DNA from: a virus
Reading direction: 5' to 3' (one strand)
Virus record (IMG/VR): IMGVR_UViG_3300033153_004384
Location: 1-25,306 of that record
Length of the DNA: 25,306 nt
Shown: one piece after another, positions 159-8,417 of the stretch
Layout of the letters: each line of letters starts with the position of its first letter
Position numbering within the stretch: the stretch's first letter is position 1
The notes under the pieces: model-generated
What the model saw: the letters and a program-made list of their open reading frames with translations, nothing else
Told to the model about the DNA's origin: nothing
The model's database searches: none
Position numbers and translations under genes: made by a program

Positions 159-1880
159 ATGAATAAAGACAAATTCAACCCACCATCTCACTACCACAAA
201 ATAGCCAAAGACTATATTATCAAAAAAGATAAAGAACTCCAAAAAGAGGGTAAATATTATATTGATAAACAGTTAGCACTAAGGTGTATTAAATTTTCTA
301 GCTATCTTAGGCATACAGATGGAATACTCCTAGATATTAATTTTCAGTTCGTTGAGTGGCAAATTAAGGCTATTGTAGATATATTTTCCACTAAGTATTC
401 AAGTGGAGAGTATAAAGGTCTTAGGAGATATCAAAGAGCATTGTTTTTTATGCCAAAAAAGAATGGAAAAACAGAGTTAGGAGCGGTATTTCACTTGATA
501 ATGTTTTTTATTATTGATTCAGATAGGGTTAAAAATCAATTTAGTGTAGCTGGAGATAGTGAACAATCTCATATTCTACACTTAGCCATAGAAACCATGA
601 TTAGAGCAAGCAGAAACGACTTAGATTTGATGGAGTTCATAGAAAAAGTAACAATAAAGCCACCTCTGATAAAGAAAAAAAATGATATATATCCTCAAAC
701 AATGATGGCATTATCTAAACCAGTTGGGGATTCTGATTCAAAAGATGGCAAAAAGGTAACATTTTTTACATCGGACGAAGGACATTCACATCCTAGTAAA
801 TCACTATATCAACTTATAAAAAATGGTATGGCTTCACAATTAGAGCCTTTAGAAATAAACATTTCCACGGCAGGAAAATCAAAAACCACTTATTTTTATC
901 TTGATATTTATTTGTATGCTAAAAAAGTAAAAGATGGAACAATCAAAGATGAAAGATTTTATCCAGTAATCTTTGAGATAGATAATGTTGAAGATTTAGA
1001 ACAAAATGATGCTGATTTTTGGAAAAAAGAAAAATACTGGAAACTATGCAACCCTGCATATCCGATAAGCCCTACTAAGTCTTTTATGGAGGGATTGGTA
1101 TCAGAATCAGAGCATAGTGAAGAGTCTCTGGTAACATTTAAAATTAAGCATTTAAATATTTGGCAGGATAAAGCCGTAACATGGATAAAAAGCCATATAT
1201 GGACTGCAAATCAAACAAAAATAGGATTTACAAAACTAAAACAATTGAAAAACAGAAAATGCTATGGCGGCTTAGATTTATCTACAAGTATTGATATAAC
1301 CGCTCTTGTGCTAATATTTGAGGACATAGGGGATGGATACGATATTATTCCTATGTTTTGGATACCTAAAGATAATATGATTGCTAGAGTCAAGCGTGAC
1401 AAGGTGCCATATCTTGATTGGGTAAAAGATAAACTAATAAGAACTACAGAGGGAAATATAGTGGATTATGATTTTCTACAGAGGGACATAGAGAGGGTTT
1501 GTAGTTTCTTTAATGTGCAAATGATAGGATATGACCCATGGAACTCTAGTGATATTGTTAGAAGATTAACCGATAAAGATGTCGTAGAATTGATAAAAAT
1601 AAGACAAGGAATATCTCTAACGGCATCAAATAAACAAATAGAGATATTAGCAATTCAAGGAAAGCTAAATCACGGGAATAATGCTGTTTTAAACTGGATG
1701 TGTTCAAATGTAGTTATTGATACAGACTCAAACGATAATTATAAGATTGATAAAAAAATGTCCACTGAAAAAGTTGACGGGATTGTTGCAATGAGTATGG
1801 CTCTGAAACTTGCTATGCTTGATATTGAAGAAAAAGAAGACGAAAATGTATATGAGGGTAGAGGAATGAGAATATTATAA
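159..1880 (+). CDS. terL: Terminase large subunit (packaging ATPase-nuclease)
   Basis: This is the DNA-packaging motor, which hydrolyses ATP to pump DNA into the prohead and cuts the concatemer. The N-terminal ATPase has a Walker A-like loop MPKKNGKTE (residues 98-106) and a Walker B VTFFTSDEGHS (200-210) with the Asp-Glu pair at 206-207. The C-terminal RNase H-like nuclease shows its metal-binding acids in GLDLS (Asp373), GYDP (Asp459) and KVDG (Asp540). The 573-residue length is normal for the HK97/P27-like TerL family. The start follows the previous stop by four bases and has no clear Shine-Dalgarno, so translational coupling to the upstream gene is likely. All catalytic acids appear intact. 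Confidence 0.96.
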   Translation: MNKDKFNPPSHYHKIAKDYIIKKDKELQKEGKYYIDKQLALRCIKFSSYLRHTDGILLDINFQFVEWQIKAIVDIFSTKYSSGEYKGLRRYQRALFFMPKKNGKTELGAVFHLIMFFIIDSDRVKNQFSVAGDSEQSHILHLAIETMIRASRNDLDLMEFIEKVTIKPPLIKKKNDIYPQTMMALSKPVGDSDSKDGKKVTFFTSDEGHSHPSKSLYQLIKNGMASQLEPLEINISTAGKSKTTYFYLDIYLYAKKVKDGTIKDERFYPVIFEIDNVEDLEQNDADFWKKEKYWKLCNPAYPISPTKSFMEGLVSESEHSEESLVTFKIKHLNIWQDKAVTWIKSHIWTANQTKIGFTKLKQLKNRKCYGGLDLSTSIDITALVLIFEDIGDGYDIIPMFWIPKDNMIARVKRDKVPYLDWVKDKLIRTTEGNIVDYDFLQRDIERVCSFFNVQMIGYDPWNSSDIVRRLTDKDVVELIKIRQGISLTASNKQIEILAIQGKLNHGNNAVLNWMCSNVVIDTDSNDNYKIDKKMSTEKVDGIVAMSMALKLAMLDIEEKEDENVYEGRGMRIL

Positions 1881-1920
1881 TTTATGATATACTTTTGCAG
1901 ATTAAAAAAAAGGACAGAGG

Positions 1921-2838
1921 ATGAAAATGTTTAGATTTATGCTATTGAGCGTATTATTATTTAGTGGATTGTTTGCAGCGGATACATATTACGACCAAAC
2001 AATAGAGAACACTTCATGGAAAGAACAAGCCAAAATAAAGCTAGTTGATAGTGGAGATGGCAATGAAACGTTTTCTATATCAACAATCGATTATAACTCA
2101 CCTATAAATATTGCAAGAGGAAATATCAGCGGTTCCGAGCCTTTTGGTGCTTATGGTAAAATAGTTACAACTGGAGCGGTTACAAACAGATTGTTATGGG
2201 CTGATGGCGATTGGTACATTCCTAATCAAACCTCAGGGGAGCAAATATCTATCCAGAGCACAAACTCAGCGGATGGTATAGGTGGAGCAGGGATAAGAAG
2301 TCTTCATTTAATTTGTCTTGATGAAAACTTGACACCTTATGAAGAAACAGTGGATTTAAACGGTACTAATTCAGTATTGACAACAGCAACAAATATTAGA
2401 TTTATTCAATGTGCTCATATTAAAACCTTTGGAAGCACTAAGGCAGCTGTAGGTACTATTACATTAGAAAACATAGATGTAAATAAAACATATAACCAAA
2501 TAGATGCCCTTGAAAATAGATGTAGTTCTTCTGCAAGAATGGTTCCTAAAGGTAAAAGAGCTATTCTGGCAGGAGTTGTTGGATCTTCTATTAGTGGTAC
2601 TGCTGCATCTTCTTCTATTGTTGCGATAGCTTCTACTGTGTTTGCAGATCATGATTATACAAAAGATACAATACTTATACCGTTTGGAAGTATAGGGGTT
2701 CAAGATGGAGCAGTATCTTTTACATTACCAGTACCTGCTGTTTTTTATGAGGGTGCGATTATTGGTATGACGGTATCGACAGATAAGGCTGCAACAATAA
2801 CTGGCAACTGGTACGGTTGGCTAGAAGATGATAATTAA
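1921..2838 (+). CDS. Exported phage virion-like protein, paralog 1
   Basis: The N-terminus is a textbook Sec signal peptide: a basic start (MKMFR), a hydrophobic core of about 14 residues and a cleavage-type end LFAAD near residue 20. There is no lipobox Cys. The mature part begins YDQ-x-x-EN-x-SWK and later has VDLNGTNSV, followed by a beta-rich C-terminal half with PVPAVFYEGAIIG. These features match, from memory, a family of uncharacterised virion proteins common in aquatic phages. It is a paralog of the next gene. ATG 1921 has AGGA six bases upstream, but ATG 1927 is six bases after AGAGG and aligns with the start of the paralog, where the first ATG is ATT. Start 1927 is thus equally likely. 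Its role is unknown; it could decorate the virion or act at the cell envelope. Confidence 0.75.
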   Translation: MKMFRFMLLSVLLFSGLFAADTYYDQTIENTSWKEQAKIKLVDSGDGNETFSISTIDYNSPINIARGNISGSEPFGAYGKIVTTGAVTNRLLWADGDWYIPNQTSGEQISIQSTNSADGIGGAGIRSLHLICLDENLTPYEETVDLNGTNSVLTTATNIRFIQCAHIKTFGSTKAAVGTITLENIDVNKTYNQIDALENRCSSSARMVPKGKRAILAGVVGSSISGTAASSSIVAIASTVFADHDYTKDTILIPFGSIGVQDGAVSFTLPVPAVFYEGAIIGMTVSTDKAATITGNWYGWLEDDN

Positions 2839-2847
2839 GGGATTAAA

Positions 2848-3789
2848 ATGTTTAGATATATTTTATTAAGTGTACTATCATTTAGTGGATTGTTTGGAGC
2901 GGATACCGCTTATGACCAGGTGCTAGAGAATATTTCATGGAAAGATAGCGTAAAAGTAAGACTTGTTGAGAATAATGACAGTACTTATTCCATGTCTCCG
3001 AATTTAGCGGATGGCGCAGGGAATCCGCTATCTTCAACAGATGGAAATTTAGATATCAGCAACTTTTATCTAAATGTTGCAAAAGGTGAAGTTAATAGAC
3101 ATAGTGTAATCCATAAGTTTGGAAGAAATCCTGCAGTATCAACTAGTTCATTTAGTACTATTTGGAATGGTGGAGGTGTATATACTGGGTTTAATGCTAT
3201 CTCTGCTGAAATAGTAGAATTATATTCAGATGATGTTGATGATGGGAATTCAAGTACTGGACTAAACACTATTAGAATATTTGGACTAGATGCTGATTGG
3301 CACGAACAATATGAAGATGTAGATTTGAACGGTACAAACTCTGTATATTCTACTTTATCATATATAAGACTTGATAGAGCCAAAGGGTTAGATGCTGGGG
3401 CATCAGGACATAATGAGGGTGATATAACGATAAGACAAAGTGTTACAATAGCTAATGTGTTCGCAGTTGTACCAGCTACATACAATTCTACAATGATAGC
3501 AGCTTATACAATCCCAGCCGATAAAACAGGCTATTTAATGAGCTTATCTACAGCACTATCTAATAAGAATGCAGCAGTTGTTGAAGTTAGGTTTCAGATA
3601 AAACAGCCGGGCAATGTGTTTACTGTAGGTGGTGAAGCTGCTATGAATTCTGTAGGGTCTGGTTTTGCTACTTTTCCTTTTCCTGTTCCGATAAAGATAC
3701 AAGAAAAAACAGACATATATATAGAGGGCGAGGCATCAGCAAGTGTTGCAGTTTCTGCTTTTATGGATATTTTATTGGTGGATAATTAA
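2848..3789 (+). CDS. Exported phage virion-like protein, paralog 2
   Basis: This tandem copy of the preceding gene (313 residues) starts nine bases after its stop, with AAGGG six bases before ATG. The signal peptide MFRYILLSVLSFSGLFGADT closely matches that of paralog 1, as does the mature start YDQ-x-LEN-x-SWKD. The central part carries HKFGRNP, IWNGGGVYTGF, IFGLD and VDLNGTNSV, and the end has PVPIKIQEKTDI and a final VDN. From memory, these are hallmarks of an uncharacterised virion-protein family in marine and freshwater phages, which usually has no signal peptide. The export signal on a virion-like domain is unexpected, because heads and tails assemble in the cytoplasm. Function is unknown. 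Confidence 0.76.
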   Translation: MFRYILLSVLSFSGLFGADTAYDQVLENISWKDSVKVRLVENNDSTYSMSPNLADGAGNPLSSTDGNLDISNFYLNVAKGEVNRHSVIHKFGRNPAVSTSSFSTIWNGGGVYTGFNAISAEIVELYSDDVDDGNSSTGLNTIRIFGLDADWHEQYEDVDLNGTNSVYSTLSYIRLDRAKGLDAGASGHNEGDITIRQSVTIANVFAVVPATYNSTMIAAYTIPADKTGYLMSLSTALSNKNAAVVEVRFQIKQPGNVFTVGGEAAMNSVGSGFATFPFPVPIKIQEKTDIYIEGEASASVAVSAFMDILLVDN

Positions 3790-3804
3790 GGAATAAACTA
3801 AAGA

Positions 3805-3834
3805 TTATCATATTTTAAAAAACTATGATACAAT
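3805..3834 (+). promoter_or_regulatory. Putative sigma70 promoter with extended -10
   Basis: TGATACAAT at 3826-3834 is an extended -10 element (TGn plus TACAAT). TTATCA at 3805-3810 is a weak -35 (four of six matches) with 18-base spacing. Initiation would fall near 3841, just before an inverted repeat in the leader of the 62-residue membrane protein. It would drive the membrane protein, portal and downstream head genes separately from the terminase. This is a motif match only. Confidence 0.4.
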
Positions 3835-3841
3835 ACATTAA

Positions 3842-3891
3842 TTAAGTCGAGTAAAATCGCAACATTCAACGAGTCTGAAATTACGACTTAA
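3842..3891 (+). promoter_or_regulatory. Leader inverted repeat next to a ribosome-binding site
   Basis: TTAAGTCG (3842-3849) and CGACTTAA (3884-3891) are perfect 8-base complements separated by 34 bases. The right arm runs into the AAAGG Shine-Dalgarno (3890-3894), six bases before ATG 3901. Folding of the RNA could therefore change access to the ribosome-binding site, or the repeat could bind a dimeric regulator. There is no T-run, so it is not a terminator. Confidence 0.4.
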
Positions 3892-3900
3892 AGGTACAAC

Positions 3901-4089
3901 ATGAACATTACGAAAAAGATACTTATATTTTATTTTATTATTCTTATCTGTCTTGTAGTGTCTTCTTCAGGGGTGTATGTATTTAGCCCAATTGTGGGAG
4001 AAATATACTTCGCTACATGGGTATTCCTTATCCCATTAATCGCAATTAGTAAGCTATACGAACAAGTCCAAACAGAAGAGAGTCCATAA
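3901..4089 (+). CDS. Small two-helix membrane protein
   Basis: This 62-residue protein has two hydrophobic segments, roughly residues 7-31 (ILIFYFIILICLVVSSSGVY) and 36-50 (IYFATWVFLIPLIAI), and a short acidic tail. It is preceded by AAAGG at 3890-3894. Its stop overlaps the portal start (TAATG), so the two are translationally coupled. I do not recognise the family. Its place directly before the portal, behind a possible promoter of its own, could suit a membrane protein such as a superinfection-exclusion factor or an assembly aid. That is speculation. Confidence 0.7.
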   Translation: MNITKKILIFYFIILICLVVSSSGVYVFSPIVGEIYFATWVFLIPLIAISKLYEQVQTEESP

Positions 4090-5312
4090 TGGATTTTTCA
4101 AGAGTATGGCAAAGCGATGAAAGCTCAGATGATTTTTTAAGAATTTTCAATAATGCTGCAGAAACTTCGAGCGGTGTAAAAATTACAGCAAATACAGCAT
4201 TAAGAAATTCAGTCGTGTTTGCTTGTAATCGTGTATTAAGTGAATCAATTTCTAGTTTACCATTAGTGCTTTATAAAGAAGATGAAAAAGGTAATAGAGC
4301 TAAAGCAAAAGACCATCCTTTATATAAATTACTAAACAGCAATCCCAATAAAGAATCTACTACTATGCAGTGGCGAGAAACTATGATAACAAACCTCAAT
4401 CTAAGAGGTAATCATTTTACTCAAATAATCCGAAATAGAAAAAACGAAATAGTTTCATTATGGGGATTAGATACTGCGAGAATGACAGCTAAAAGACTTG
4501 AAAGCACTGGCGAAATAATCTTTATTTACAATTTAGGAACTAAAGAAATAGCATTTAAGTTCGATGATATTTTAAATGTAGCTGGATTATCACTTGATGG
4601 TATTTCAGGAATTAGTCCTATAGCCTACAATAGAGAGAGTTTAGGGGTATCAGTAGCATTAGAAGCTCATGCAGGTTCATTCTTTAAGAATAGTGCAAGT
4701 CCATCTGGTATTTTTTCTATCGAGGGCGAATTATCAGATATATCATTTAATAGAATGAAAAAAGACTTTGATTCAAGCTGGACTGGAATGAAAAACAGCA
4801 ACAAGCCAATGGTTTTAGAGGGTGGAGCAAAATTCTATCCAATAACTATGACAAATGTTGATTCTCAATTCTTAGAAGCTAGAAAGTTTCAAAAACAAGA
4901 TATTTCAGCTATTTTTAGAGTTCCATTGCACATGATAAACGACCTTGAAAAAGCTAATTACAATAGCATAGAGCAATTATCTTTAGGGTTTGTTATCTAT
5001 TCGCTTACTCCATCTTTGATTAGAGTAGAACAATGTATGCAACGTGATCTATTAACTGAAAAAGAGAGAGCAGATGGATATTACATCAAACATAATCTAT
5101 CAGCACTACTAAGAGGCGATATTAAGTCAAGAGCAGAATTATATAGCAAATTCGTATCAACTGGTATTTTCACTATAAATGATGTTCTAAAACTTGAAGA
5201 TATGAATGAAGTTGATAATGGTGGAAATAGATATATGCAAATGGCTATGACAACTATTAATAATATTAACGATGGTAAAAATCTAAAACAAGAGGTAAAA
5301 ACAAATGCTTAA
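4089..5312 (+). CDS. HK97-family portal protein
   Basis: This is the dodecameric ring at the head vertex through which DNA is packaged and to which the tail joins. The sequence shows the HK97 portal pattern: ALRNSVVFACNRVLSESISSLPLVLYK near residues 37-63, DHPLYKLLNSNPN, WRETMITNLNLRGNHF, and the later RVPLHMINDLEKANYNSIEQLSLGFV that lines the channel helix region. The 407-residue length is typical. The start overlaps the preceding stop by one base, and the end overlaps the protease gene by eight bases. Order portal, protease, capsid is the standard HK97 arrangement. Confidence 0.95.
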   Translation: MDFSRVWQSDESSDDFLRIFNNAAETSSGVKITANTALRNSVVFACNRVLSESISSLPLVLYKEDEKGNRAKAKDHPLYKLLNSNPNKESTTMQWRETMITNLNLRGNHFTQIIRNRKNEIVSLWGLDTARMTAKRLESTGEIIFIYNLGTKEIAFKFDDILNVAGLSLDGISGISPIAYNRESLGVSVALEAHAGSFFKNSASPSGIFSIEGELSDISFNRMKKDFDSSWTGMKNSNKPMVLEGGAKFYPITMTNVDSQFLEARKFQKQDISAIFRVPLHMINDLEKANYNSIEQLSLGFVIYSLTPSLIRVEQCMQRDLLTEKERADGYYIKHNLSALLRGDIKSRAELYSKFVSTGIFTINDVLKLEDMNEVDNGGNRYMQMAMTTINNINDGKNLKQEVKTNA

Positions 5313-6144
5313 TATTTTGACAGAGTATCCTTGGGCTATTACTGAAAAAGCACTTAAAGAGATAATCTTAGCAGTACAAAAGTTTGATATTAAAAGTGCA
5401 ATAAGTACGGGGTACGAGACAGTTCCATCAGAGAGAGTTCAGCTAATAAAAAATATTGCAGTTATATATGTGAAAGGTTCAATTTTTAGATACTCAAATA
5501 TCTTTACAGATTTTTACAACTTGACTACTATTGACAATTTAAAAGAAGATGTTAACTATGCTGAAAGTTTAGAGGATATTGATGAAGTTGTATTTTTCGT
5601 TGATTCTGGTGGCGGTCAAGCTAATGGAATAAGTGAGTTTTCTCAAATAGTGGCAAATATGAAAAAACCTACAACTTCTTATATCTCTGGAAGTGGTGCA
5701 AGTGCTGCTTATTGGATAGCAAGTGCAACTAATAAGATAGTCATTAACAAAACAGCAATAGCTGGAAGTATTGGTGCAATGCTAGAGGTTTATGATGATT
5801 CCAAAATGTTAGAAAAATTTGGAATTAAAAAAACTGTTTATAAATCAAAGGTTTCTCCAAATAAAAACAGTGATGAAGAGCTGCAAACAGTAGTCGATAG
5901 AGTAGGAGAAGAATTTGTTACAGATGTAGCAAAAAATAGAAATGTGTCTTTTGAGTTTGTTTTAGAAAATTATGGTCAAGGAGGTTTATTTGTTGGAGAA
6001 GATGCAGTTGATGCAGGGTTAGCGGATAAGGTTGGAACTTTTGAAGAGGTGTTAGCTTCTTTTGGAACGAGTAGCCAATCGAGCTTTAATGGTGCGAAAT
6101 TTAATGCACAACAAAGACAAATTAATCTATTAAAGGAGATTTAA
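5305..6144 (+). CDS. Head maturation protease, S49 (SppA-like)
   Basis: This protease would cleave the capsid's scaffolding region during head maturation. It belongs to the S49 (signal peptide peptidase A-like, lambda C-like) serine proteases that use a Ser-Lys dyad. The likely nucleophile is Ser133 in SGSGASAAYWIA, and the likely general base is Lys180 in VYKSKVSP. FFVDSGGGQANGISEF (residues 97-112) forms the oxyanion-side loop typical of the fold, and AGSIGAMLEVYDD lies between the two catalytic residues. There is no signal peptide, so it acts in the cytoplasm, unlike cellular SppA. It overlaps the portal by eight bases and the capsid gene by one. Confidence 0.92.
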   Translation: MLNILTEYPWAITEKALKEIILAVQKFDIKSAISTGYETVPSERVQLIKNIAVIYVKGSIFRYSNIFTDFYNLTTIDNLKEDVNYAESLEDIDEVVFFVDSGGGQANGISEFSQIVANMKKPTTSYISGSGASAAYWIASATNKIVINKTAIAGSIGAMLEVYDDSKMLEKFGIKKTVYKSKVSPNKNSDEELQTVVDRVGEEFVTDVAKNRNVSFEFVLENYGQGGLFVGEDAVDAGLADKVGTFEEVLASFGTSSQSSFNGAKFNAQQRQINLLKEI

Positions 6145-7394
6145 TGTTAAAAAAATTAATAGCAGCGAGAACAGTAGCAATCGCTAGTATGGGAACGCTA
6201 AACGATACAGCTTTAGCAGAAGAGAGAGAGTTCACAGCAGATGAGCAAACGCAATATAACGAGCTAAACGCTAAGCAAAACAGCCTAAAAGGTCAAATTT
6301 CAATAGCTGAAAATCAAGCTAGTTTAAACGCTGAAATGAATAAACCAACATCAACACCGTTTCATGCACCAGTTGCAGCACAAGAGCCTTTAGATGTTGA
6401 GTTGATGGATGATACTGGTGGATTTAAAGATTTAGGTGAGTTTATGGGTGCTGTTAAGTCTGGTGTTGATTCTCGTTTACAGTTTGTAGCTACTCAATCA
6501 GCAGGAACAGGTAGTGAGGGCGGTTATTTAATTCCTAAACAATTTGGTGCAATGATTAACGCATTTACTCCAGAGGGTTCAATTGTTAGATCACGTGCAA
6601 CAGTTATTCCTGGTGGAGAGTATCCAGATGCTGAAATTTCATTTCCAGCTTTAGACCAAAGTGGAGATAAAGGTGTTTATAGTGGTGTTGTTACTACTTG
6701 GTTAGCGGAAAATGAAGAGATTGATGAAACTTCATTCTCATTAAGAGAAATTGCAATGGCTCCAAAAGGTATCGCAGGATTTATCGCATTCTCTAATAAA
6801 CTATTGAGAAATGCACCAGCTGCATCAACTATGGGAACAATGCTACTAGGTCAAGCAATCGCAAAAGCAGAAGATGACGCATTTATTCAAGGCGATGGTG
6901 TTGGTAAGCCTATGGGATTTTTAAACCATGTATCAGCAAAAGCTTTAAATAGAAATACAGCTGATACTGTAAAATTTATTGATTTAACTCTCATGGTGCA
7001 AAACCATAAAGGCGATATGAAAGAATGGGTAATTTCTCAAACTTTATATTCAACTATTACAACAATGGTAGATGCTAACAATGGTTTAATTTTTACAAAC
7101 GGTGTTAATGGAGTATCTCCAATGATGTTTGGCTTTCCAGTTAGATGGTCTGAAAGAACTCCTACTAAAGGTGTTAAGGGTGATATTATGTTACTTGACC
7201 TTTCATACTACTATGTAAAAGATGGAAGTGGATTGTTATTATCTGCAAGTTCACACGTTAAGTTTACAAGTGATAAAACATTGTTCAAAGTTACAAAATC
7301 AGTTGATGGTCAATCATCTATGAACGGCACACTAAAACTAGAAAATGGCTCAACAGTATCACCTTTCGTGATTCTTGATGTACCATCAGCGTAA
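6144..7394 (+). CDS. Major capsid protein, HK97 fold
   Basis: This is the main shell protein. The N-terminal 60-70 residues are charged and helical (EEREFTADEQTQYNELNAKQ), as in the scaffolding delta domain that the upstream protease removes. The HK97-fold body follows, with GTGSEGGYLIPKQFG, TPEGSIVRSRATVIP and the typical motif EDDAFIQGDGVGKPMGFLNH near residue 245. A length of 416 residues is normal for a capsid with a fused delta domain. The start overlaps the protease stop (TAATG). The exact cleavage site cannot be read from sequence; it probably lies around residues 70-95. Confidence 0.95.
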   Translation: MLKKLIAARTVAIASMGTLNDTALAEEREFTADEQTQYNELNAKQNSLKGQISIAENQASLNAEMNKPTSTPFHAPVAAQEPLDVELMDDTGGFKDLGEFMGAVKSGVDSRLQFVATQSAGTGSEGGYLIPKQFGAMINAFTPEGSIVRSRATVIPGGEYPDAEISFPALDQSGDKGVYSGVVTTWLAENEEIDETSFSLREIAMAPKGIAGFIAFSNKLLRNAPAASTMGTMLLGQAIAKAEDDAFIQGDGVGKPMGFLNHVSAKALNRNTADTVKFIDLTLMVQNHKGDMKEWVISQTLYSTITTMVDANNGLIFTNGVNGVSPMMFGFPVRWSERTPTKGVKGDIMLLDLSYYYVKDGSGLLLSASSHVKFTSDKTLFKVTKSVDGQSSMNGTLKLENGSTVSPFVILDVPSA

Positions 7395-7405
7395 GGAGCT
7401 AAATT

Positions 7406-7753
7406 ATGGCAACAATAACACCAACAACAACATCATCATCAGGTGTAGTTTCTATTACAGAAACTACACTCGGAGCAAGTGATACTTTTGTATTTAAAAG
7501 AAATGCAAAGCAGAGACTCATTCTGAGAAATGATACAGTAGGCGCATTAACTCCTCTGATAGATGGAGATGGTTCAACTAGCGTAGGAATAGATGGAATA
7601 GGCTCCATTGATGTATCTGGCGGTTTTTCTGTAGGCGAAATGGCAGCGGATGCTGTTGTATCATTAAATACTGACTCAATTAGAGAGTATTTAAAAGGTA
7701 CGATAGAGATTACTGGTGGTACTGGAATAGTAGCCATCTTAATGGAGGGATAG
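7406..7753 (+). CDS. Small head-associated protein, unknown
   Basis: This 115-residue protein starts seven bases after AAGGAG and sits directly behind the capsid gene. It opens with a Thr/Ser-rich stretch (TITPTTTSSSG) followed by beta-rich sequence with many Gly (DGDGSTSVGIDGIGSID) and ends GTGIVAILMEG. Genes in this slot often encode head decoration or stabilising proteins. I see no diagnostic motif, so that role is inferred from position and composition alone. Confidence 0.6.
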   Translation: MATITPTTTSSSGVVSITETTLGASDTFVFKRNAKQRLILRNDTVGALTPLIDGDGSTSVGIDGIGSIDVSGGFSVGEMAADAVVSLNTDSIREYLKGTIEITGGTGIVAILMEG

Positions 7754-7757
7754 AAAT

Positions 7758-8150
7758 ATGCAATTATTAGAAGAAGAATTAGTAGTAGTAGCAGGAGTAG
7801 AACCACAGGACATAGGAACTGCTGATGTAACAGGTGATTATTTAGCAATGAGCGGTGCAGACCAGATTCTAGCTACATTTACAACAGAAGCACTTACAAC
7901 TGGTAAAATCGGAACAGTAGAGCTATTACAGGCTACTGATTCAAGCGGTACTGGTGCAAAAGCACTAGCTACAGCAGTAAGCGGAACATCAGTAGATAGT
8001 GGAGCGGTTACTGTTTCAGTTGGTGTTAAAAGTGATGATTTTGATACAAACAATGATTTTGCTTTTTATGCGGTTAAAGTTACTATTGATGAAGCTGGAA
8101 AACTTGGTGCTGCAACAGTAGCACGTGGACATTTAAGATATAGCGTTTAA
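7758..8150 (+). CDS. Probable virion protein (head decoration-like)
   Basis: This 130-residue protein follows the previous gene by four bases, behind GAGGGA. The sequence looks beta-rich (KIGTVELLQATDSSGTGAKAL, VTVSVGVKSDDFD, FAFYAVKVTIDE) and ends GHLRYSV. Such small beta proteins after the capsid are common in siphoviruses as decoration or head-stabilising proteins. There is no specific family match that I can defend. Confidence 0.6.
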   Translation: MQLLEEELVVVAGVEPQDIGTADVTGDYLAMSGADQILATFTTEALTTGKIGTVELLQATDSSGTGAKALATAVSGTSVDSGAVTVSVGVKSDDFDTNNDFAFYAVKVTIDEAGKLGAATVARGHLRYSV

Positions 8151-8174
8151 TCGCTGTATCTAAAGGAAAAAACT

Positions 8175-8417
8175 ATGAAAGTTATAATTTTAAACTCATA
8201 TTTTGACAAAGGTCTTAATAGACAAGTTGAAGTTGATGAAGTTCTTGATTTAGATGAAGATAGAATTGAAGTTTTAAAGTCTATTGGTGTTGGTGTCAAA
8301 GAGTACAATGAAGATTTGGACGATGATGAATCGGATGAAGATTTGGACGATGAAATAGCTAAAATGAAACTTTTAATGTCGACTACACAAATGTATCAGA
8401 TGCAAAAGAAGCATTAA
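8175..8417 (+). CDS. Small acidic head-region protein, possibly frame-disrupted
   Basis: The 80-residue product begins MKVIILNSYFDKGLNRQVEVDEVLD, a pattern seen in small phage head-region proteins with a short beta fold, and AAAGGA precedes the start. A very acidic stretch (residues 45-62) contains a 9-codon tandem duplication. After about residue 65 the frame reads LLMSTTQMYQMQKKH, which looks unlike coding sequence. One extra T near 8372 and one extra A near 8418 would instead give NVDYTNVSDAKEALK and then NDKLKE with a stop at 8443-8445, just before the next gene. The C-terminus may therefore be shifted by two small deletions or by sequencing errors in short base runs. Confidence 0.65.
   Translation: MKVIILNSYFDKGLNRQVEVDEVLDLDEDRIEVLKSIGVGVKEYNEDLDDDESDEDLDDEIAKMKLLMSTTQMYQMQKKH
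8308..8353 (+). repeat. In-frame 27-base tandem duplication
   Basis: The 19-base string starting ATGAAGATTTGGACGATG occurs perfectly at 8308-8326 and 8335-8353, a 27-base (nine-codon) period. It encodes EDLDDDE followed by EDLDDE in the acidic part of the small head-region protein. It looks like a recent slippage duplication. Confidence 0.8.

Follow-up and report, generated by a model that had tools for sequence, protein, structure and literature searches.

The gene pair between terminase and portal

The window, i.e. the whole stretch of 25,306 nucleotides that was analysed, carries two tandem open reading frames of 305 and 313 amino acids (gene 1 and gene 2) at the coordinates given by the initial annotation. 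As had been stated there, the pair at 1921-3789 is flanked by the genes for terminase (TerL) and portal, and the two genes are paralogs, with an identity of 32% and an hhalign probability of 99.8% for the comparison of alignment against alignment. The quoted motifs IWNGGG, IFGLD, VDLNGTNSV and PVPIKIQEKTDI are all present. The features of the locus are collected in Table 1.

Table 1. Features at and around the gene pair (positions in the window)
Feature	Position	Strand	Basis
TerL	159-1880		phrog_9, E 7e-123
Putative extended -10 promoter TATGATATACT, immediately preceding the pair	1883-1893	+	near-identical in aligned relatives; again before L154 gene
Gene 1, exported virion-type jelly-roll protein (predicted), 305 aa	1921-2838	+	ORF; homology to gene 2; AF2 jelly-roll model
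Gene 1 Sec-type signal peptide, 19 aa, predicted cut after LFA	1921-1977	+	sequence; in relatives conserved or exchanged for another signal
Gene 1 linker/arm, common to gene 2 and to unrelated C-terminal domains in sister phages	1978-2076	+	sequence comparison
Sequon DGNET, Asn48 of gene 1	2062-2064	+	motif; loop in AF2 model
Sequon DENLT, Asn136 of gene 1	2326-2328	+	motif; loop in AF2 model
Sequon DLNGT, Asn147 of gene 1	2359-2361	+	motif; turn in AF2 model
Sequon DVNKT, Asn188 of gene 1	2482-2484	+	motif; loop in AF2 model
Gene 2, exported virion-type jelly-roll protein (predicted), 313 aa, phrog_8198	2848-3789	+	phrog_8198, E 3.3e-39; AF2 model; fold search
Gene 2 Sec-type signal peptide, 17 aa, predicted cut after LFG	2848-2898	+	sequence; dN/dS ~0.1 or less in most pairs
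Gene 2 shared linker/arm	2899-2991	+	sequence comparison
Sequon ENNDS, Asn43 of gene 2, in shared linker	2974-2976	+	motif; loop in AF2 model
Sequon DGNSS, Asn134 of gene 2	3247-3249	+	motif; loop in AF2 model
Sequon DLNGT, Asn161 of gene 2	3328-3330	+	motif; turn in AF2 model
Second putative promoter TATGATACAAT, after pair, before small membrane protein and portal	3824-3834	+	alignment of relatives; motif search
Two-helix membrane protein, 62 aa, overlaps portal start	3901-4089	+	ORF; seen in relatives' slots
Portal (HK97-type)	4089-5312		phrog_12, E 3e-115

Residues 52-313 of gene 2 align to positions 23-262 of the 262 positions of the phrog_8198 profile (E 3.3e-39). Gene 1 did not match this profile directly; judged from its alignment with gene 2, it is a member of a sister subfamily. 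The proposed membership in a virion-protein family is supported by this match and by a relative, ORF176 of S-CREM2, which mass spectrometry detected in purified virions (20 unique peptides, coverage of 39.4%; PMC10665884). This protein corresponds to the homologue at 139308-140018, for which the coordinates in the paper and the sequence match agree. The homologue in S-SCSM1, a phage for which 45 virion proteins were determined by MS (PMC9602691), is likewise annotated as virion protein. In the loci examined, the homologues of cyanomyoviruses and other tailed phages share the jelly-roll domain and are mostly situated in head regions, close to the genes for terminase, portal or capsid. Cyanomyoviruses encode the homologue between terS and terL; in MW202879 it stands between TerL and portal, in OR003940 it follows the portal, and in L010 it follows a MuF-like gene.

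The AF2 models of gene 1 (mean pLDDT of 79.6) and gene 2 (mean of 83, with most of residues 80-313 above 90) are poor only in the N-terminal part. The structure-based family search suggested initially returned a jelly-roll for each protein, resembling cement proteins, lectins and XepA. For gene 2 the VIA Z was 9.7 with the BC2L-C lectin domain (TNF-like lectins), 9.3 with the trimeric cement protein of KHP40 (7dou) and 9.0 with XepA, a phage jelly-roll/C2-like protein, all of which denote a likeness of fold only; overall, values of about 9-10 were obtained for gene 2 and of about 8 for gene 1. Foldseek matches in the PDB, with TM-scores of about 0.4 or less, were not taken as family membership. 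Searches by sequence gave nothing meaningful for the pair in the PDB, no relatives on plasmids and only two distant signal-less MAG relatives in the genome collection, and searches against Pfam, NCBIfam and PADLOC gave nothing useful (best PADLOC match: a weak SspB match, E 0.006).

Downstream of the pair, the 3790-3900 gap showed no sign of an RNA element (fold z of -1.1, no Rfam match). The two-helix membrane protein which follows was considered as a partner of the exported pair and rejected, as relatives that lack exported genes have it at the same position. Since it is present with or without them, it belongs to the core and lies outside the cassette described below.

Signal peptides and the signal-linker cassette

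The N-terminus of gene 1 reads MKMFRFMLLSVLLFSGLFA and that of gene 2 MFRYILLSVLSFSGLFG, in each case followed by the likely cut and the residues ADT. Both comprise a basic n-region, a hydrophobic h-region and a small residue at position -1. Signals were called from the n-, h- and c-regions, the residue at -1, and the conservation and selection across relatives; on these features both proteins are predicted to carry type I signals, and the clear Sec-type signals described before are borne out by the pattern of regions, by retention in relatives and by purifying selection in the gene 2 codons. Whether related phages keep the signal can be answered positively for every copy seen in close relatives, namely both copies of L003/L004, L009 and L017 as well as the copies of L031, L150, L154, L158 and L230. 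Gene 1 of L003 and L017 starts with a different but signal-like N-terminus (MKKILLIILATLTLFG), which is 31% identical to that of the window, compared to 77-86% for the remaining protein. The signal codons of gene 2 showed a dS of 0.5-1.2 and a dN of 0.03-0.11 and are therefore translated and constrained. Of the 801 non-redundant ORFs with 150 amino acids or more in the fetched loci, 31 have a comparable N-terminus, many of them from this lineage; among the late genes of the window with 80 amino acids or more, gene 1 and gene 2 are the only ones. A cysteine of a lipobox is absent from the cleavage region of both proteins, which rules out that they are bacterial lipoproteins.

We agree with the initial annotation that export of virion-family proteins is unexpected. 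The comparison with family members lacking a signal showed that it is missing in about 50 sampled members of phrog_8198, with a protein of one unrelated phage (L041) as the exception. This absence is a habit of the sampled members and not a formal criterion, and the pair of the window departs from it.

The assumption that the export signal predates the duplication is contradicted by the data. In a maximum-likelihood tree of 67 rows, comprising family members with and without signal, gene 1 and gene 2 form separate well-supported clades, each nested within signal-less relatives. Three changes in the presence of the signal are forced by well-supported branches, one each in the lineages of gene 1, gene 2 and L041. 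In addition, the identity between gene 1 and gene 2 is 76% in the signal, falls to 55% over the 31-33 residues that follow and is 24% over the remainder. The tree and the identities by region rule out a signal older than the paralogues; judged from both, the 5' module of signal and linker spread between genes that had already diverged.

The slot between TerL and portal was read in close relatives, which were retrieved with the portal as bait, and its content differs between them. L031 and L150 each carry one gene of the phrog_8198 type with the signal and linker of the window, and L230 carries two jelly-roll genes in swapped order. In L154, the window-type signal and linker precede a different domain of 400 residues, which matches phrog_1645 (E 5e-25), a family annotated as virion structural protein, head and packaging. 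In L158, another signal and a linker of the same type precede a second phrog_1645 domain (E 1e-8). The slot of L149, which has the closest portal (90%), contains no exported gene and is occupied by an unrelated CUB-domain protein of 481 amino acids without signal (3264-4709), while in the Campylobacter phage CJIE4 a gene annotated as MazF (toxin) was found. By sequence comparison, a constant cassette of signal and linker thus carries swappable domains from two virion families. Cyanophage members of phrog_8198 and phrog_1645 both start with MA(Q/I)WNK..., and this common start gives a hint of a shared docking arm.

For the promoter-like sites, the motif TATGWTAYAMT has only two exact matches in the window, and a general promoter scan of the window was at chance.

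Two further observations concern this region in relatives. In L154, an insert with reverse-strand reading frames (2074-3300) lies between TerL and the exported gene; the 3' end of TerL is apparently repeated beside the promoter, so that it looks like a mobile insertion. In L233, the gene for a small exported protein of 104 amino acids without sequons (2878-3192) directly precedes the exported slot gene.

Enrichment of glycosylation sequons

The acceptor sequon of PglB from Campylobacter jejuni is [D/E]-X-N-X-[S/T] (PMC6478998). Gene 1 contains four and gene 2 three such sequons, all seven in loops or turns of the AF2 models, and both proteins thereby combine a predicted signal with sequons, as PglB N-glycoproteins do. 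With expected counts taken from shuffles, 13 exported proteins (12 from the slot and one lipoprotein) showed 47 sequons in about 4,470 amino acids (10.5 per 1000, 6.6 sequons expected), although the number of true events is lower because the rows are partly homologous among relatives. For five non-redundant exported proteins, 22 sequons were determined compared to 2.24 expected, which is a 9.8-fold enrichment, while the maximum in 3000 shuffles was 8. The 52 signal-less homologues showed 12 sequons in 13,627 amino acids (0.88 per 1000, 14.2 expected), and 3 sequons were counted in the 6,210 amino acids of 23 further proteins from the window (0.48 per 1000, 7.0 expected).

Among 15 control motifs (reversed order, another central residue, the acid moved, another last residue), 14 were not enriched in the five non-redundant proteins, the exception being a mild increase of [DE]-N-X-[ST] (7 compared to 2.3). 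In the lineage contigs, with 152 ORFs of at least 100 amino acids, all 14 ORFs with at least three sequons carry an export signal, while 135 ORFs without signal contain 28 sequons in 35,147 amino acids (38 expected). The exported proteins of L154 and L158 have 4 and 7 sequons of their own in a domain unrelated to the jelly-roll, and none in the linker itself; in three signal-less phrog_1645 homologues from Synechococcus and Sulfitobacter phages no sequon was found. Some sites shift between relatives, and the number per protein stays mostly at 3-4 (two only for gene 1 of L230). Exported fibres of the unrelated phages L041, L134 and L141 showed no enrichment (6 sequons, 7.1 expected), so that export is by itself not sufficient to produce the motif. 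Altogether, the enrichment concerns this particular motif and goes together with the signal. The sequons point to glycosylation, an option absent from those listed initially (blocking or aiding later infection, decoy, decoration after lysis, host-type signal fusion).

The sequon-rich ORFs include an RCC1-repeat protein with a lipoprotein signal, which adjoins the tape-measure gene of the sister phage L031 (L146, 8072-10108, minus strand) and contains three sequons, of which two lie shortly behind the signal. The same locus encodes a class 3 lipase (PF01764; 5348-6004, minus strand) near the tail/lysis end, possibly a lysis or host-envelope enzyme.

Proposed export route and its alternatives

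The best TerL matches are Campylobacter phages (37.6%), and the GC content of the window is 0.35; the best matches of portal and capsid point elsewhere. Based on TerL, the low GC content and the style of the signals, the host probably belongs to the Campylobacterota. Taking signals and sequons together, we consider it quite likely that the two proteins are exported and cleaved by the Sec pathway and N-glycosylated by PglB of a PglB-bearing host.

The proposed mechanism would start from the constant 5' cassette (the signal and an arm of about 30 residues, preceded by the promoter-like site), which has been put onto interchangeable domains of the virion-surface type. Late in infection, as far as the timing can be inferred, the proteins would be exported by Sec, with removal of the signal. 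Folding would follow in the periplasm, to jelly-roll proteins that are probably trimeric, and there the host oligosaccharyltransferase PglB would add N-glycans at 3-7 sites per protein. Lysis would free the glycoproteins beside the new virions, and docking by the arm would provide a host-type sugar coat as their most likely use, while a fraction may also act in the envelope. To this explanation as a whole, from cassette to likely virion coat, we assign a probability of roughly 0.6. We lean to the virion coat because the domains belong to virion families and because the N-terminal arm is common to unrelated domains, both here and in cyanophages. Against the coat it counts that the proteins would have to dock after lysis out of a diluted periplasm, and that binding of the linker to the capsid is hypothetical. 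Virions after lysis are therefore given as destination with slightly less than even confidence, and the complete picture of Sec-routed, PglB-glycosylated structural proteins picked up at lysis as a particle coat, encoded by a modular and diversifying cassette, is put forward tentatively.

A role in the envelope is the strongest alternative, which we regard as somewhat less likely than the coat. Exported and perhaps glycosylated proteins in the periplasm or at the surface would block superinfection or the loss of progeny to debris, as known for exported exclusion proteins such as Llp of T5 and Ltp of TP-J34 (PMC9586334, PMC3952083). Both are exported during infection, but they are lipoproteins outside the virion families and no sequon enrichment has been described for them, whereas the proteins of the pair comprise neither a lipobox nor a membrane anchor. 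The variability of the slot between close relatives, with an accessory gene annotated as MazF toxin in CJIE4, and the RCC1-repeat lipoprotein with its three sequons in the tail region of a sister phage fit an envelope function. However, the families belong to the head cluster and are not receptor-binding, and the arm that is retained seems to precede the domain in the virion versions too. In favour of the envelope, XepA of PBSX, a beta-sandwich protein of similar fold, is exported and missing from virions (PMC6834076); it differs in being a pentamer from a lytic cassette, and the available part of its description reports no Sec signal.

Expression from a prophage as a lysogenic conversion module (moron) would agree with the promoter-like site of its own and with the accessory slot. 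It is improbable, since the sister contig of 40 kb showed no integrase match and its gene list comprises RecT, beta clamp and helicase with no evident repressor, and an untargeted search of the genome collection found no prophage relative from the Campylobacterota. The least probable explanation is a hydrophobic N-terminus that acts as a buried or membrane-tethering peptide on proteins staying with the cytoplasmic virions, with sequons as a by-product of DxNxT loops such as calcium-binding turns; the position of all seven Asn in loops or turns and a cleavage that is itself predicted would allow this, but calcium loops would take Asp for Asn, and neither [DE]xDx[ST] (2 compared to 2.2 expected) nor [DE]xNx[DEKR] (1 compared to 2.3) is enriched, and the signal-less members of both families have either no sequons or no more than expected by chance.

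Returning to the proposed glycosylated virion coat, its single elements have parallels in known systems. Cement proteins are assembled within the cell; the resemblance of the pair to those of the BPP-1 type and to that of KHP40, a trimer on the head of a Helicobacter phage, is confined to the jelly-roll fold. The Pgl system of C. jejuni uses the same sequon in exported proteins but is a host system, and its use on phage virion-family proteins was not found described in the part of the literature available. Mycobacteriophage virions are glycosylated as well; here, glycosyltransferases encoded by the phage produce the sugar-coated particle proteins in the cytoplasm. Virion glycosylation and exported exclusion proteins are thus already known separately for phages. 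Leaving aside the literature on phage use of Pgl, we are aware of no earlier case in which virion-family proteins of a phage are made for both Sec and a host oligosaccharyltransferase. If true, this would overturn the assumption that structural proteins of tailed phages are handled in the cytoplasm only, and a confirmed virion coat would be categorically new. The system would give a direct test of phages wearing host sugars, and the density of sequons could serve as a simple marker, from the genome only, for phage proteins that are truly exported and glycosylated and for a host with PglB.

Further unrelated phages also have cassettes of signal-bearing fibres, which suggests that appendage proteins are exported more widely than has been assumed. 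In L041, three nearby genes of the virion region carry signal peptides (235-735, 3953-5482 and 5782-6741), among them a fibre with LNTGQGxNELYDMNQ repeats and the independent signal-bearing phrog_8198 protein. L134 contains five consecutive genes, all with signal peptides (2151-8351), which include tail-fibre-type (phrog_863, E 6e-21) and Ig-domain proteins. The same holds true for four consecutive genes of L141 (673-10095), which encode proteins of 353, 1452, 249 and more than 1088 amino acids, the last one with LamG and Ig domains.
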